NCBI RefSeq assembly: GCF_000975055.1
Contig: NZ_BBRB01000001.1
Location: 62,001-126,000 of the forward strand
Source: Demequina sediminicola
GTDB taxonomy: Bacteria; Actinomycetota; Actinomycetes; Actinomycetales; Demequinaceae
Direction: 5' to 3'
DNA: 64,000 bases
Both the position numbers and the translations under genes were made by a program. Shown piece by piece: positions 8,934-42,601 of the stretch (its first letter is position 1; every line of letters starts with the position of its first letter). The notes under the pieces are model-generated. The model made no database searches, was not told the DNA's origin, and saw only the letters and a list, made by a program, of their open reading frames with translations.

Positions 8934-9371
8934 GTGACTACTCCAGGCATGAACATCGGCTCTGGGCCTACTCAGGAACCGGAGCAGAGCTTCTACGAGG
9001 CGATCGGCGGCCACGAACGGTTCGCCAGCATCGTCCACCGGTTCTATCAAGGCGTGGCGACGGATCCGATTTTGGGACCCATGTACCCGAGCCACGACAT
9101 GGAGGGTGCCGAATGGCGCCTCATGGCATTCCTCGAGCAGTACTGGGGTGGGCCAACGACGTACTCCGACCAGCGCGGCCACCCGCGACTACGGATGCGA
9201 CACCACGGCTTTCACGTCAACCCTGAAGCGCGCGACCATTGGGTCGCGCTCATGCGGGACGCGGTGGCGGAAGAGGGCCTGTCGCCCCTGCACGCGACTA
9301 CGCTGATGGATTATCTTGAGCGCGCCGCTCACTCCATGATCAATACGTTTGAACCCACGCCAGGCTCATAG
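8934..9371 (+). CDS. glbO: Truncated haemoglobin, group II (trHbO-like)
   Basis: 145 residues, the usual size of 2-on-2 globins plus a short N-terminal extension. Seen: SFYEAIGGHERFASIVHRFYQ opening helices (cores YEAIGG and HRFYQ), FLEQYWGGP, the proximal-His segment RMRHHGFHV and the G-helix Trp in DHWVALM, which is characteristic of group II. Such proteins bind O2/NO-type ligands in the cytoplasm. GTG start 2 bp after the MscS stop; ATG five codons later is an alternative. Co-transcribed with mscS and probably tesB. Confidence 0.9.
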   Translation: MTTPGMNIGSGPTQEPEQSFYEAIGGHERFASIVHRFYQGVATDPILGPMYPSHDMEGAEWRLMAFLEQYWGGPTTYSDQRGHPRLRMRHHGFHVNPEARDHWVALMRDAVAEEGLSPLHATTLMDYLERAAHSMINTFEPTPGS

Positions 9372-12995: not shown

Positions 12996-13024
12996 GGGGG
13001 CATCGGCCCAATGTCGATTCCCCC
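12996..13024 (+). other. Hairpin between proW and proX
   Basis: GGGGG-c-ATCG pairs with CGAT-t-CCCCC across a short loop. There is no T-run after it, so it is more likely an RNA-stabilising or processing hairpin that sets the level of the binding-protein message than a full terminator. Role inferred from position. Confidence 0.4.
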
Positions 13025-13130: not shown

Positions 13131-14033
13131 ATGTTCAAGCGCACCGGAACCGCACTCGCGGTGACTGCTGCTGCGGGCCTCGTGCTCGCTGGTTGCTCGT
13201 CCTCCGACGACACCGACGCCGAGGCCACCGCAAGCGGAGAAGCCGCTGCGGGAGGCGACATCACCCTCGCCGCATTCAACGGCTGGGACGAGTCCATCGC
13301 CACGTCACTGCTGTGGCAGAACATCCTCAACGACAAGGGCTACAACGCCTCGGTCGACTACGCGGATGCAGCCGTGGGATTCCAGGGAATCGCTGACGGC
13401 GACTACGACATCCTCACCGATGTCTGGCTGCCCCTGACCCACGCTGCCTACCTCGAAGAGTTCGGCGACGACATGGAAGAGGTCGGTGCATGGTTCGACA
13501 GCGCTGCCCTCACCGTGGCAGTGAACGCTGACGCTCCCATCGACTCGCTTGACGAACTCGCGGCTAACGCTGACGAATTCGACAACCGCATCGTCGGCAT
13601 CGAGGCAGGCGCCGGCCTGACCGCGACCGTCAAGGACGCGACCATTCCGGGCTACGGCCTTGAGGAGCTGGACTTCGTCACGTCGTCGACCCCCGCGATG
13701 CTCTCGGAGCTCGACAAGGCCACCACGGACGGCGAGAACATCGTCGTCACGCTGTGGGAGCCCCACTGGGCCTACGGCGCCTACGACCTCAAGAACCTTG
13801 AGGACCCTGAGGGCACGCTCGGCGAGGCTGAGAACATCGTGACCTACTCGCGCACCGGATTCGGTGAAGAGTTCCCCGAGGTCACCGGCTGGCTCGCTGA
13901 CTTCACGATGGAAGCCGACCTCCTGTACGACCTGGAGAACGAGCTCAACGGCGCCGACTCGGCAGACCGCGAGCAGATCGTGGCCGACTGGGTGGCAGCT
14001 AACCAGGAGTGGGTTGACTCCCTCACCGCATAA
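13131..14033 (+). CDS. proX: Glycine betaine ABC transporter, substrate-binding lipoprotein
   Basis: 300-residue OpuAC-type binding protein, lipobox LAGC with Cys22, then an acidic Ala/Ser linker. The mature domain opens with ITLAAFNGWDESIATSLLW and contains YDILTDVWLP and TLWEPHWAYGAYDL, which supply the aromatic residues that bind quaternary ammonium groups in this family. A GAAAGGAAG ribosome site precedes the ATG. Third gene of the proVWX operon; a strong terminator follows. Confidence 0.93.
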   Translation: MFKRTGTALAVTAAAGLVLAGCSSSDDTDAEATASGEAAAGGDITLAAFNGWDESIATSLLWQNILNDKGYNASVDYADAAVGFQGIADGDYDILTDVWLPLTHAAYLEEFGDDMEEVGAWFDSAALTVAVNADAPIDSLDELAANADEFDNRIVGIEAGAGLTATVKDATIPGYGLEELDFVTSSTPAMLSELDKATTDGENIVVTLWEPHWAYGAYDLKNLEDPEGTLGEAENIVTYSRTGFGEEFPEVTGWLADFTMEADLLYDLENELNGADSADREQIVADWVAANQEWVDSLTA

Positions 14034-14051
14034 GTAGTTTCTGCTTTACTC

Positions 14052-14085
14052 AAAGCGCCGGTCACCACAAGGTGGCCGGCGCTTT
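14052..14085 (+). terminator. Rho-independent terminator of proVWX
   Basis: AAAGCGCCGG and CCGGCGCTTT pair perfectly, extended by CACC/GGTG around an ACAA loop. The stem lies 18 bp after the proX stop and ends in a CTTT tail. Confidence 0.85.
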
Positions 14086-14146
14086 GCGCATCCCAGACCA
14101 CAGCGCATCCCATCCCGCCGCCCCGCCCCGCCTGCCGCCCTGCCCC

Positions 14147-14206
14147 GCCAAGTGGCTCCATTTCGCTGTTTTGAGGCGCCAAAACAGCGAGATGGAGCCA
14201 CTTGGC
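14147..14206. repeat. Palindromic intergenic repeat, copy A
   Basis: Two 27-bp arms (14147-14173 and 14180-14206) are reverse complements with a single mismatch, around a 6-bp loop AGGCGC. Core of the arm: TGGCTCCAT..CGCTGTTTTG. Related copies lie at 20205-20256 and 42523-42576. It sits between the proVWX terminator and the convergent thioesterase gene. Confidence 0.85.
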
Positions 14207-15176: not shown

Positions 15177-16850
15177 CTACAGCGCCCACTCTTCAAGCGC
15201 CGGGATGCGGTCACGCACTGCCGCCCGTGCTTCATCCGCAGACGAAGCGTCACGTGCAACCTCAGCGAGTGCCCGGCATTCGTCGAGTTCCACGGTGGCG
15301 AGGATCGCCCCCACCGCTGGAAGTGAACGTGGCGTCATCGATAGCGACGCCACACCTAGCCCCACGAGCACGGCAGCGAGCGCGGGATCTGCCGCGGCCT
15401 CCCCGCAGACGCCTACCGGCCGCCCATGACGCGCCGCCCCGTCGCAAGCGGCGGCGATGAGGTCAAGCACGGCGGGTTGCCACGGCGTTGACAGCGATGC
15501 CAAGGAAGCGAGTTCGCGGTCCGAGGCCATCGCGTACTGCGTGAGGTCGTTCGTTCCGATCGACGCAAAGGATGCGACCTTGAGGAGGTCTCGCGCACGT
15601 AGGGCCGATGCGGGAATCTCGATCATGATTCCCGCCTGGCCGATGCCGTGACGAGCACAGGCGTCCACGAACGTCTCCGTCTCCGCGACAGTGGCGACCA
15701 TGGGTGCCATGACGTGGACGTCCGCCTCCGCAGCTTTCGCTGCCTGTGCGATGGCCTGGAGCTGATCTTCGAGGACATCAGGACGGTCCCACGATGTCCT
15801 GAGCCCGCGGACACCGAGTGCAGGATTGGGCTCGTCGTCGGCGGTCACGAACGGCAGTGGCTTATCTGCACCCGCGTCGAGCGTACGAATCACCACTTTC
15901 TTGCCAGGGAACGCTTCAAGAACTTTGCCGTACTGGGCGACCTGCTCCTCAACTGAGGGCGCCGTCTCCCGTCCGAGGAAGCAGAACTCGGTGCGGAACA
16001 ACCCCACGCCCTCGGCGCCGGCCTGTGCCGCAGCATCGGCTCCATCGGGATTCCCGATGTTGGCCAGCAGCGCGACGGCATGGCCGTCCTTGGTGCGGCC
16101 AGGCTCGGTCAGCGCTTCGGGAAGCGAAATCTCCAGCGAGAAGCGCTCAATCAGTTCAGCATCCGGTTCAACGTGAACCTCGCCGCTTCCACCATCGACA
16201 GCAATCACCTGGCCGTCAACGAGGTCGTCAGCACCGATGGTTGCCACAATGCACGGGATACCCAGTGAACGCGCCAGGATCGACGTGTGCGAGGTAGGGC
16301 CACCGCCGCTGGTGACAATGGCAAGGACCGATGCTGGATCGAGCGTCGCTGTGTCCGCGGGAGCCAAGTCCTCGGCAACCAGCACGAACGGCTCGTCCCG
16401 CCTCGGGACTCCAGGGCCTGGCACCCCCGTCAGGTGAGCGACGATGCGGCTACGCACATCGCGCACATCCGTGGCTCTCTCTGCGAGATTTCCACCCAAC
16501 GCCGCAAGTTGCTCAGCCAACGCATCGGCGGCGAGCCACACTGCACGCTCGGGGCTCTCCCCATCGTCGGTGACCTTGGTTGTTGCGGATGACACCAGAG
16601 CAGGGTCCGTTGCCATCGTCGACGTGACAGTGAGTATCTCTGCTGCGGTACCGGACACAGATGCCGCCGCGGCCAACAGATCCTGTTGGACCTGTTGGCT
16701 CGCGGCGACGATGGCCGCTGCCGCTGCCTCCCGCTTCGACTCATCCAGAGCCGGAGCAGGTGCAGGTTCGGCAACCGCAGCAGCCATCCGTGCGACCGGT
16801 GCCGCGCAGCGTCCAGCGCTGACCGCTACGCCACGCAGCACCTGTGTCAC
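15177..16850 (-). CDS. ptsI: PTS enzyme I (phosphoenolpyruvate-protein phosphotransferase)
   Basis: 557 residues, full enzyme I length. Takes phosphate from PEP and gives it to HPr. Seen: the phosphorylated histidine in SGGGPTSHTSILAR (His188), the N-terminal HPr-binding helices, and the PEP-binding barrel with EGVGLFRTEFCFLGR, VVIRTLDAGADKPLPF, and SFASIGTNDLTQYAMASDR; cores GLFRTEF and GTNDLTQY. GTG start overlaps the stop of the EIIC gene (GTGA), so both are translated from one message. Confidence 0.95.
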   Translation of the reverse strand: MTQVLRGVAVSAGRCAAPVARMAAAVAEPAPAPALDESKREAAAAAIVAASQQVQQDLLAAAASVSGTAAEILTVTSTMATDPALVSSATTKVTDDGESPERAVWLAADALAEQLAALGGNLAERATDVRDVRSRIVAHLTGVPGPGVPRRDEPFVLVAEDLAPADTATLDPASVLAIVTSGGGPTSHTSILARSLGIPCIVATIGADDLVDGQVIAVDGGSGEVHVEPDAELIERFSLEISLPEALTEPGRTKDGHAVALLANIGNPDGADAAAQAGAEGVGLFRTEFCFLGRETAPSVEEQVAQYGKVLEAFPGKKVVIRTLDAGADKPLPFVTADDEPNPALGVRGLRTSWDRPDVLEDQLQAIAQAAKAAEADVHVMAPMVATVAETETFVDACARHGIGQAGIMIEIPASALRARDLLKVASFASIGTNDLTQYAMASDRELASLASLSTPWQPAVLDLIAAACDGAARHGRPVGVCGEAAADPALAAVLVGLGVASLSMTPRSLPAVGAILATVELDECRALAEVARDASSADEARAAVRDRIPALEEWAL

Positions 16851-19504: not shown

Positions 19505-19735
19505 ATGGCTGACCCACAAAAGATTCTCGATGGCCTCGGCGGAGATGCAAACATCATCGACCTCGAGCCCTGCATCACACGCCTCCGCGTGGAAGTCGAA
19601 GATGCCAGCGCCGTCAGCGAGCCCACCCTCAAGGCTGCAGGAGCCATCGCCGTGATGCAGCAAGGCACCGTAGTCCAGGTGATTGTGGGCCCGCAGGCCG
19701 ACACGATCGCGGCTGACATTGAGGACCTGCGTTGA
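19505..19735 (+). CDS. PTS EIIB component (second copy)
   Basis: 76 residues, clearly related to the preceding EIIB by eye (shared GG..NI..LEPC.TRLR and VVQV.VGP). Phospho-cysteine in DLEPCITRLRV. AAAGGAAACC lies before the ATG. The stop overlaps the EIIA start (TTGA). Two adjacent single-domain EIIB genes with one EIIC is unusual: they may serve different EIICs or substrates. Confidence 0.9.
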   Translation: MADPQKILDGLGGDANIIDLEPCITRLRVEVEDASAVSEPTLKAAGAIAVMQQGTVVQVIVGPQADTIAADIEDLR

Positions 19736-20196
19736 CCGCAGCGCTGCGCGTCTTGTCCCCAGTGACAGGCACCGTTGTCGCGATGGCCGATGTCCCTGAC
19801 CCGGTTTTTGCCGCGTCGCTCGTTGGCCCTGGGGTCGCTATTGAGCCCGACACGGAGCAGGGCACTGAGGTCAGGGCGCCCATCGATGGCACCGTGGTGA
19901 AACTTCACCCCCACGCCTTCGTGGTGCAAGCGGCCGACGGTCGCGGCGTGCTGGTTCACTTAGGCATCAACACCGTACAACTCGACGGCGAGGGCTTCAC
20001 CTTGCACGTTGCGGAAGGCGACGCCGTCAGCGCGGAGCAGGTTCTCATCTCATGGGATATTGCCGCGATCGCAGAGACAGGCCGCTCGACGGTCTGTCCC
20101 GTCGTGGCACTCGATGCCCGGACCGATGCAGTGGGTGACCTCGCGGAGGTCGACGCGCTCGCTGGCGCACAGACCGCGCTCTATACCTGGTCCTAA
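19732..20196 (+). CDS. crr: PTS EIIA component (Crr-like)
   Basis: 154-residue EIIA of the glucose family. Seen: LSPVTGTVVAMADVPDPVFA, IDGTVVKLHPHAFVV and GVLVHLGINTVQLDGEGF; the phospho-accepting histidine is in VLVHLGIN, with a second active-site His in KLHPHA. It takes phosphate from HPr and passes it to EIIB. TTG start overlapping the EIIB stop. The promoter-distal gene of the regulator operon. Confidence 0.92.
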   Translation: MTAALRVLSPVTGTVVAMADVPDPVFAASLVGPGVAIEPDTEQGTEVRAPIDGTVVKLHPHAFVVQAADGRGVLVHLGINTVQLDGEGFTLHVAEGDAVSAEQVLISWDIAAIAETGRSTVCPVVALDARTDAVGDLAEVDALAGAQTALYTWS

Positions 20197-20204
20197 GAAC
20201 GCCG

Positions 20205-20256
20205 AATGGCTCCATTTGACTGTTTGAGCACCTCAAAACAGGCAAATGGAGCCATT
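20205..20256. repeat. Palindromic intergenic repeat, copy B
   Basis: Left arm AATGGCTCCATTTGACTGTT and right arm AACAGGCAAATGGAGCCATT pair with one mismatch and one extra base, around AGCACCTC. It lies 9 bp after the EIIA stop and before the convergent ettA. Same family as 14147-14206. Confidence 0.82.
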
Positions 20257-20290
20257 TCGCGTGGGCTTGGTGAGCCGCACGTGGGCCGAG

Positions 20291-40638: not shown

Positions 40639-40760
40639 GACTCTCCCCCTATGCCAGAAACCCCGGTGTGGAAGCCCCTGCCCGCTGTGGTGGAGGCGAC
40701 GCTACCAAGCCGTGGGCGCCCACCGCATCGGCCCTGTGGAGAACACGTTACCGTTGGATC

Positions 40761-41425: not shown

Positions 41426-41788
41426 TTAGCCCTGCTGCTCAGCGAGCTTCGAGCGGACCTCGTCCATGTCGAGTTCCTCGACTGCGTCGACAACCTGCTG
41501 CAGCGACGGCGCGGGGAGCGCGCCTGCCTGCTGGAACACCATGATGCCGTCACGGAAAGCCATGAGGGTCGGGATCGAGGTCACACCGAACTGCTGACCA
41601 AGCTCAGGCTGGTCTTCGGTGTCGATCTTGGCGTGCACAACCTCGGGGTTGGTCTCTGAAGATGCTTCAAAGACAGGTCCGAAGCGCTTGCACGGGCCGC
41701 ACCATTCAGCCCAGAAGTCCACCAGAACGATGCCGTCCTTGGTGACTGTCTGCTCAAACGTTTCCTTGGTCAAGTCCACAGTTGCCAT
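41426..41788 (-). CDS. trxA: Thioredoxin
   Basis: 120 residues. Redox motif WCGPCK (Cys30, Cys33), FWAEWCGPCKRFGPVFE context, and cis-Pro in TSIPTLMAF. General disulfide reductase of the cytoplasm. The C-terminal ~15 residues (MDEVRSKLAEQQG) extend past the fold. Confidence 0.95.
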   Translation of the reverse strand: MATVDLTKETFEQTVTKDGIVLVDFWAEWCGPCKRFGPVFEASSETNPEVVHAKIDTEDQPELGQQFGVTSIPTLMAFRDGIMVFQQAGALPAPSLQQVVDAVEELDMDEVRSKLAEQQG

Positions 41789-41922
41789 GTGGGTATTTCC
41801 TTCCTAGTTGCGTCCCTGGATGCAGCCTTAACACTTCCTCAGGGCCGAGTATTCCGCTCTACCCTTTCAGAGGTTCGGCGCGCGCGGTTCCGTTGGCACG
41901 CCGTGGCAGACACAATGGAACT

Positions 41923-42465
41923 ATGACGGATATGGCAGAACTGCCCTCGGAACCTTCTGGATGGCTCAGCAAGAACGAACTTGAGCATGTGCGCGAGCAT
42001 TTGCCGGTGCTGTACGTGAACGTTGTTCCGGTGCGAGTCGACAGTGCTGGGCAGGTCACGGAAGTGGGCCTGCTGCTGCGTGCTGACGACAACTCGATCC
42101 ACCGGGCGCTGATTGCAGGCCGAGTGTTGTACCACGAGCGCATTCGCGACGCGCTGATCCGCCACATTGAGAAAGACCTGGGCAGTGTCGCATTGCCGCG
42201 CATTCCGGCGTCGCCAAACCCGTTCACCGTTGCCGAGTACTTCCCCACCGCTGGCGTCACGCCGTTCTTTGACTCGCGTCAGCACGCCGTGGCCTTGGCG
42301 TATGTGGTGCCGGTCGACGGCGACTGCGAGCCCAGCCAGAATGCCCTCGACATCGTGTGGATTACACCTGAAGAGGCAGCGAGCGAAGAGGTGCTCGCAG
42401 ACATGACTGGTGGGCAGGACACGTTGCTGCGGCGCGCGTTGGCGCACTGCGGCATGCTCCCTTAA
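41923..42465 (+). CDS. NUDIX-like protein, DUF4916 family
   Basis: 180 residues resembling actinobacterial DUF4916/NUDIX-fold proteins: VLYVNVVPVRVDSAGQVTEVGLLLR, VLYHERIRDALIRHIEKDLG in place of the Nudix helix, and a SRQHAVALAYVVPVDGD strand. The canonical GX5EX7REUXEEXGU box is not intact, so hydrolase activity is doubtful. ATG at MTDMAEL. Divergent from trxA. Confidence 0.78.
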   Translation: MTDMAELPSEPSGWLSKNELEHVREHLPVLYVNVVPVRVDSAGQVTEVGLLLRADDNSIHRALIAGRVLYHERIRDALIRHIEKDLGSVALPRIPASPNPFTVAEYFPTAGVTPFFDSRQHAVALAYVVPVDGDCEPSQNALDIVWITPEEAASEEVLADMTGGQDTLLRRALAHCGMLP

Positions 42466-42516: not shown

Positions 42517-42522
42517 CCTGCG

Positions 42523-42576
42523 AAGTGGCTGTTTTTCGCTGTCTAGACGCCTCAAAACAGCGAAATGGAGCCATTT
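42523..42576. repeat. Palindromic intergenic repeat, copy C (decayed left arm)
   Basis: Right arm 42551-42576 (AACAGCGAAATGGAGCCATT core) is nearly identical to copies A and B. The left arm (AAGTGGCTGTTTTTCGCTGT) is diverged. It lies between two convergent genes, as do the other copies. Confidence 0.8.
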
Positions 42577-42601
42577 GGCGGGGAAAAGGCGGGGGTGGGG
42601 A

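Follow-up and report, generated by a model that had tools for sequence, protein, structure and literature searches.

The production of REP repeats is ascribed to RAYT transposases, and the parallels described for such systems include a RAYT gene flanked by inverted REPs, coevolution of the gene with its repeats, and a repeat abundance that tracks the gene (Nunvar 2010, PMC2817692). REPs usually number more than 100 per genome (PMC2817692) and carry a GTAG or CGTC tag at one end (PMC3733652). AbiEi antitoxins bind inverted repeats (PMC7319586).

Here we describe a family of dispersed palindromes in Demequina sediminicola (genome G000; 2.46 Mb in 11 contigs), three copies of which lie in a 64-kb window, by which we mean the whole stretch of DNA that was analyzed (contig C11, 62001-126000). 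Our main reading, to which we give a probability of about 0.6, is that the family is REP-like and that its cognate enzyme would be a nuclease-like protein of the AbiEi-Vsr (DUF559) type, and not a RAYT. The three copies, with their covariance model scores, and their neighbouring genes are as follows:

13131-14033, plus strand: left neighbour of copy A, a choline-type ABC substrate-binding match under the curated cut-off
14117-14146, plus strand: tract before copy A, C-rich and G-poor, as is typical for type A arms
14147-14206: copy A, 60 nt, both arms of type A (TGGCTCCATTT.. and TGGCTCCATCT..), 84.0 bits
14246-14815, minus strand: right neighbour of copy A, a weak acyl-CoA thioesterase match under the curated cut-off
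19732-20196, plus strand: left neighbour of copy B, a glucose-type PTS IIA
20201-20260: copy B, both arms of type A, between the 3' ends of the PTS IIA gene and ettA, 68.0 bits
20291-21973, minus strand: right neighbour of copy B, EttA
41782-42465, plus strand: left neighbour of copy C, without an NCBIfam match
42520-42579: copy C, with an arm of type B on the left (TGGCTGTTTTT) and one of type A on the right, adjoining rdgB, 75.7 bits
42602-43216, minus strand: right neighbour of copy C, RdgB/HAM1 NTP pyrophosphatase

The original prediction had described copy A as a palindrome with 27-bp arms and one mismatch, and this holds: the arms at 14147-14173 and 14180-14206 are 27 nt long and 96% complementary (for the assignment of types, the arms were taken as 14147-14176 and 14177-14206). 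The related copies that had been placed near 20205-20256 and 42523-42576 are real and extend to full 60-nt units at 20201-20260 and 42520-42579, and all three do lie between the facing 3' ends of genes. An Rfam scan of the window returned only the tmRNA and four tRNAs and left the palindromes unmatched. The RdgB protein encoded next to copy C is closest, in named genomes, to those of Demequina sp. B12 (76%), NBRC 110056 (74%) and isolate Ww146 (67%).

The window also holds repeats of other kinds. An ordinary inverted repeat (AAAGCGCCGG..CCGGCGCTTT) is found at 14040-14097, between copy A and its left gene. The 9-mer GCATCGGCC occurs at 26 places in the 64 kb (for example 13000-13008, 15603-15611 and 40725-40733), against 1.5 expected from shuffles (maximum 5). 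It is common in the Demequina genomes G036 and G065 too, can be found in both genic and intergenic DNA, in some cases as hairpins, and presumably resembles an uptake- or HIP1-like iterated sequence.

Across the genome, the arm core TGGCTCCATTT is found 76 times without mismatch and the reversed control pattern never, so the family is not due to chance; with one mismatch allowed, the counts are 120 and 23. A covariance model built on 22 copies places the element at a minimum of 62 sites in G000 (a lower bound; 150 of the 475 first-look candidates were scored), and for 60 of these 62 no overlap with a called gene is marked. Each copy comprises 60 nt, made up of a 20-bp arm, a 20-bp centre and a second 20-bp arm. 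Type A arms contain AAATGGNNCCATTT and mostly begin with GCC, GCG or GTC before AAATGG, while type B arms (e.g. CTGAAGTGGCACAAAATGGC) retain the TGGC and GCTGT blocks without the AAATGGNNCCATTT site; 223 A and 57 B arms were counted among the 280 arms of 140 copies from three species. The arm blocks TGG..CC are near-invariant, beyond what pairing requires. Read toward the hairpin, the 15 nt just outside type A arms consist of 60% C, 10% G and 12% A, against 38% C and 30% G in the first 15 nt behind genes as a control. By eye, no GTAG foot was seen in the 22-copy alignment or in the arm consensus.

Among 84 A-A copies, the two arms covary at positions 2, 6, 10, 11, 18, 19 and 27-30 and do not covary at positions 24-26, as in a stem that would have a tolerant internal loop. 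In the first alignment of 22 copies, covariation was not above that of shuffles. Species-mean folds of A-A copies range from -36 to -39 kcal/mol, compared with -10 to -13 when shuffled, and those of A-B copies from -19 to -22, compared with about -12.5; among the most symmetric copies, one folds at -50.9 kcal/mol (z = -13). Where neighbouring copies have no called gene between them, the facing arms are of type B in 14 of 14 cases, forming [A-B]...[B-A] composites with inserts as short as 81 bp. A DUF4349 gene lies between [A-B] and [B-A] ends in G036 (L283, 2001-3306), and these ends are 90-93% like those of the nuclease-like gene described below. In G029 (L289, 1961-2060), copies overlap in an A-centre-A-centre-A array that repeats every 40 bp.

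The family had been proposed to sit only in convergent gene junctions. With the junctions of G000 classed by our own gene calls, the 62 copies fall between convergent genes in 34 cases, between tandem genes in 25 and between divergent genes in 3, so that the claim of exclusivity fails genome-wide, although the preference behind it is strong. Gaps of at least 60 bp that bear an element are convergent, tandem and divergent in 31, 22 and 3 cases (n = 56), versus 19, 83 and 54 for element-free gaps in the same DNA (n = 156), which amounts to a preference for convergent junctions (p = 6e-10) and an avoidance of divergent ones (p = 7e-6). The corresponding counts are 31, 17 and 4 in G036 (52 copies used, a subset of the places behind 128 model rows) and 13, 11 and 2 in G065 (26 copies used, a subset of those behind 63). 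In seven other species, for which the gene calls are weak and come from few kilobases, 24 copies divide into 11 convergent, 7 tandem, 5 divergent and 1 unknown. The 11 copies of the GGATCC-core species (G014, G033, G060 and G064) divide into 1, 5 and 5, and no convergent bias is thus visible in that small sample. The median distance from the stop codon to a type A arm is 20-33 nt in three species. The 62 copies of G000 show a strong bias towards the 3' ends of genes.

We dropped the notion that arm A always faces the 3' end of a gene, as the trend appears in G000 alone. In the comparison of proximal with distal arms for type A, the proximal exceeded the distal in 13 cases, equalled it in 6 and fell below it in 6 in G000 (p = 0.03), with corresponding counts of 7/4/6 in G036 and 4/3/4 in G065; the overall arm-facing comparison was 171:27 versus 52:16 (p = 0.08).

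At convergent ends without an element (27), the best hairpin has a median of -35.3 versus -20.5 when shuffled. At those with an element (60), the best hairpin outside the element is at -11.4 versus -8.3, a comparison in which less sequence is left outside the elements and one junction can count from both sides. By eye, a GC hairpin in L086 corresponds to the element at the orthologous junctions in L216 and L258, and the element alternates with another hairpin in L068 as compared with L233 and L262. Downstream of ettA, the best 50-nt fold is between -22.6 and -48.7 in all 28 species read (strand chosen by the stop codon in 28/28, values given without a shuffle baseline), and in G000 this fold is the element itself. 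Because the copies occupy places where other junctions have hairpins, it is plausible that they may act as bidirectional transcript ends. There are counter-examples: L259 of G065 carries a GC hairpin and the element together, and copy A has the ordinary inverted repeat at 14040-14097 nearby. T-runs or U-tracts beyond the hairpin are absent on either side, which places the copies outside the definition of intrinsic terminators; given outer arm tracts with 60% C and 12% A, the sequence beyond the hairpin is G-rich, not T-rich.

Copies of the family are present at orthologous junctions in different species. Between G000 and G036, orthologous convergent junctions have the element in both genomes in 8 cases, in neither in 4 and in G036 only in 3, counts that are biased upward for sharing, as the stretches of G036 and G065 were sampled at their elements only. 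Element identity at 27 orthologous junctions is 0.76 versus 0.40 in the flanks, which carries little weight as evidence, since copies in general are alike to about that degree. Strict concerted evolution was rejected in favour of a partial form, since the similarity of orthologous copies only slightly exceeds that of cross-species pairs drawn at random (0.79 vs 0.77, n = 7; 0.80 vs 0.73, n = 3; 0.82 vs 0.78, n = 7). No member of the family is found where ettA ends in G036 and G065, nor at the rdgB junction of B12. Another hairpin repeat (CCTGGCCGTACATACACGGCGGG...) can be seen 3' of ettA in G036 (L187) and G009 (L195), where G000 has the element. Tandem GGGTTGCG-type repeats occupy one convergent junction of G000 (junction 5, L067) at which G036 and G065 have the element.

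With up to three mismatches, the two-site pattern AAATGGNNCCATTT-N26-AAATGGNNCCATTT occurs in 8 of the 44 genomes of the genus (35 copies in G000, 35 in G036, 24 in G065, 22 in G029, 12 in G060, 11 in G014, 2 in G033 and 1 in G009), and a control pattern in none. Among 396 genomes of the order, searched with up to two mismatches, it is found in six, all from this genus (1 of 109 genera). An exact 22-mer gave no stretches in a set of 84,980 species genomes, from which near relatives may be missing, and an exact search of viral contigs gave no matches. The scan for further copies has located them both elsewhere in the genome and in relatives. The likeness to REP/BIME elements that had been suggested stands as regards a genome-wide family of extragenic palindromes, but not as regards the RAYT transposase: its Y1_Tnp domain (PF01797) was matched in none of the 44 Demequina genomes, versus 5 of 14 controls.

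The palindromes also bracket one gene in particular:

G000 C11:921104-922015, outside the window: nuclease-like gene, bracketed by [A-B] and [B-A]

The product of 322 aa matches DUF559 (PF04480) with scores of 26.6 and 32.1 bits, above the Pfam gathering cut-off of 20.6, and MTES_1575 with 33 bits, under the cut-off of 38.2. An AbiEi profile matches its first half (padloc, E 1e-11), and an NCBIfam search of the product gave no match. Over much of its length, the predicted structure (pLDDT 89) matches the fold of an AbiEi antitoxin (PDB 6y8q; E 2e-5, with a low TM of 0.26 by query) and that of Rv2827c (PDB 1zel; E 7e-5, with a low TM of 0.39 by query). Its C-terminal domain matches the catalytic domain of I-Bth0305I (PDB 3r3p; TM 0.73 by target, E 0.016) and the putative endonuclease NGO0050 (TM 0.78, E 0.041). 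On these profile and structure matches, the product appears to combine an AbiEi-like domain with a Vsr/homing-endonuclease-like one (DUF559). Residues invariant in seven orthologs include D235, E246, D248, R251, H253, D262, E264 and D266, and our guess at a candidate active site would be D235, E246 and D248.

Some homolog of this protein is present in 41 of the 44 genomes. Close orthologs, with at least 44% identity to the G000 protein or the query, were found in G000, G036, G065, G014, G015, G029, G031 (with one internal stop) and G033, and in G060 the gene is broken into two pieces at 50-56% identity. The gene seems to be at one locus, as judged by alignment for G000 and G036 and by eye for the other species, in which the neighbours look alike; the bracketed segment is inverted in place in G014 (L305), G015 (L306) and G060 (L331), also by eye. 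In type IV toxin-antitoxin systems, AbiEi has a DUF1814 toxin gene as its partner; the bracketed segments of L080 and L282 hold no second long ORF in the orientation of the nuclease-like gene. A plasmid search with the nuclease-like protein gave no match, and none of 80 rdgB loci carries a homolog.

Every one of the nine genomes that carry a close ortholog has palindromes as inverted flanks at the gene. An automatic search recovered flanking inverted repeats of 29-65 matching bases in 7/7 complete orthologs, the longest being a terminal inverted repeat, as in insertion sequences or MITEs, that matches at 65 of 66 nt, while none of 144 control genes reaches 20 matches (best 17; the controls leave out four genes with family copies on both flanks, which score 0, 11, 14 and 20). 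The same search found no bracket in G029, in which the gene is at a contig end; by eye, a bracket whose core is like that genome's repeats can be seen there on one side, and in G060 both brackets surround the gene piece (L331). By a two-flank palindrome score, the orthologs reach only 10-13, like the control genes.

The brackets resemble the dispersed repeats of their own genomes. Compared with their own genome's dispersed arms in seven genomes, they reach a mean of 0.85, and 2 of 5040 permutations were as good, in a test that ignores kinship; five of the seven best match their own genome, and those of G036 and G065 best match each other. The first covariance model yielded no repeat in G015 and nine rows in G031, where the brackets have the cores TTTGGCACCATTTTC and TTGGGCCCAACTC. 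A looser pattern, written to admit these two cores with one mismatch allowed, recovered 5 dispersed palindromes in G015 and 15 in G031 (control 0), and all of those listed (the 5 of G015 and 5 of the 15 of G031) have TTGGCACCATTTTC or TTGGGCCCAACT in at least one arm. By this pattern, two or more repeats occur in 9/9 genomes with a close ortholog versus 0/35 others, with the cut-off of two set after the counts were seen; the others never exceed one copy, and G009, G023 and G064 have a single copy each. An ettA tree was built from 28 of the 43 matches, 30 loci having been supplied and two dropped because their length differed. In it, both G009 and the G023/G064 pair fall inside the clade, and independent contrasts between gene and repeats, concordant in three cases and discordant in none (p = 0.25), are too few to reach significance. 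Shared ancestry explains part of the link between gene and repeats; the gene-bearing species mostly belong to one clade. The arrangement of gene and repeats suggests a repeat-spreading system without the usual transposase.

We examined the flanks of 21 of the 86 other homolog matches. Four of these paralogs (L319, L321, L323 and L330) are flanked by inverted repeats with 20 or more matches (p = 2e-4 vs 0/144), and the remaining 17 have no long flanking inverted repeat. By eye, similar palindromes can be seen on the two sides of each of L311, L315, L319 and L326, with a sequence that differs from one paralog to the next, and by either criterion 7 of the 21 have matching flanks. The palindrome of L319 (G036 C7:213596; TCGTGCACCTGAGTGCCGG...) has three further copies in the G036 DNA examined (L222 at about 110-165, L235 at about 310-365 and 9085-9140), and L315 (G000 C11:594332) has one further palindrome, in L050. 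Loose arm counts do not separate the genomes (L319 arms, 12 in G036 and 11 in G000; L315 arms, 26 in G000 and 17 in G036). An earlier count of palindromes on both flanks of 9/21 paralogs versus 0/40 controls was dropped for matching flanks only: its cut-off of 14 was set after the scores were seen, several of the nine are unlike on the two sides, and the true orthologs reach only 10-13 by this score.

A possible course of events under the main reading is as follows. The AbiEi-like half of the protein would bind the palindromic arms, a recognition proposed because AbiEi antitoxins bind inverted repeats (PMC7319586). The Vsr/homing-like half would nick or cut near the palindromes, and repair would copy a palindrome, by which copies could be seeded or restored. 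Copies just behind genes would be retained because their RNA hairpin would replace ordinary hairpins, either ending transcripts from both directions or forming a barrier at their 3' ends. Binding, cutting and movement by the protein and termination at the palindromes are steps that we infer from sequence and its arrangement. The gene's position at apparently one locus means that its brackets may be local, which counts against the main reading. A broader and more tentative extension, to which we give slightly less than an even chance, is that AbiEi-Vsr (DUF559) proteins could, next to the RAYTs, form a second class of enzymes by which palindrome populations are founded and maintained, with lineages that have their own flanking palindromes and have in some cases seeded them behind dozens of genes as two-way transcript ends.

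We consider it unlikely that the AbiEi-like protein instead binds the palindromes as operators and autoregulates, with the bound sites stopping RNA polymerase. The nuclease would then be unused or lost and nothing would move, and sites would arise and shift with the specificity of the protein. Such a regulon would accommodate the near-invariant TGG..CC blocks that exceed pairing needs, the modular 20-bp palindromes and even the A-M-A-M-A array in G029, the copies at orthologous junctions, and the autoregulation of AbiEi via inverted repeats (PMC7319586). However, covariation between the arms includes the two spacer bases NN, with which a dimer need not make contact, and this points to base pairing. 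Acidic residues in the nuclease-like domain do not vary, and the inverted brackets, near-perfect over as many as 66 nt, exceed what an operator needs.

It is quite improbable that the palindromes are plain bidirectional hairpin terminators that are mutually similar, the nuclease-like gene being merely flanked by them. Placement at 3' ends, strong hairpins and substitution for GC hairpins are consistent with this, and one of the four other genes with family copies on both flanks does reach a 20-match inverted repeat. On the other hand, identity among unlinked copies is far above pairing needs, and the brackets and dispersed copies have a species-specific core in common. Flanking repeats of 20 or more matches in 7/7 orthologs and 0/144 controls, and the presence of at most one copy where the gene is absent, likewise argue against plain terminators. 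We give very little weight to MITEs of a transposon with a lost or unrecognised transposase and the nuclease-like gene as one of several cargoes: the facing B arms in 14/14 neighbouring pairs and a cargo that varies between pairs (the DUF4349 gene, non-coding segments of 81-344 bp) would fit, but no clear target duplication or empty site was recognised at orthologous junctions (by eye only), the DUF559 gene is the single cargo that recurs across species, and copies remain at orthologous junctions.

If a nuclease-like protein does maintain these palindromes, a RAYT-like layout and gene-repeat coupling without a RAYT would mean that a kept partnership between a nuclease and a palindrome population has arisen more than once. 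DUF559 is a Pfam family of unknown function, for which an association with flanking palindromes offers a role that can be tested. The turnover of terminators in an actinobacterium would also be tied to a selfish or tamed repeat. Among the titles and abstract starts of open-access papers, we found none that deals with palindromes in Demequina or that connects DUF559 proteins to palindromic or inverted repeats.

The Demequina system is most readily compared with REP/BIME/REPIN elements and their RAYTs, as described in PMC2817692 and PMC3116915 (Bertels and Rainey 2011). Both consist of short, species-specific extragenic palindromes that form inverted flanks at one gene, and in both the repeat abundance tracks the gene and the sequences change together. 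They differ in that Demequina is without the Y1 transposase domain (0/44) and has a gene of the DUF559/AbiEi type, and in that its repeats are three-part units of 60 nt, with about 60 copies and C-rich outer tracts, whose arms are, by eye, without a GTAG tag. AbiEi and Rv2827c are alike to the N-terminal half of the Demequina protein by profile and loosely by fold, but the latter is fused to a Vsr-like nuclease domain. I-Bth0305I shares the fold of the C-terminal domain (TM 0.73 by target, E 0.016), whereas the Demequina gene is linked to dispersed palindromes. Intrinsic bidirectional terminators likewise place a hairpin between convergent 3' ends; the Demequina palindromes differ from them in being without a U-tract and in having a sequence that is conserved across unlinked copies.
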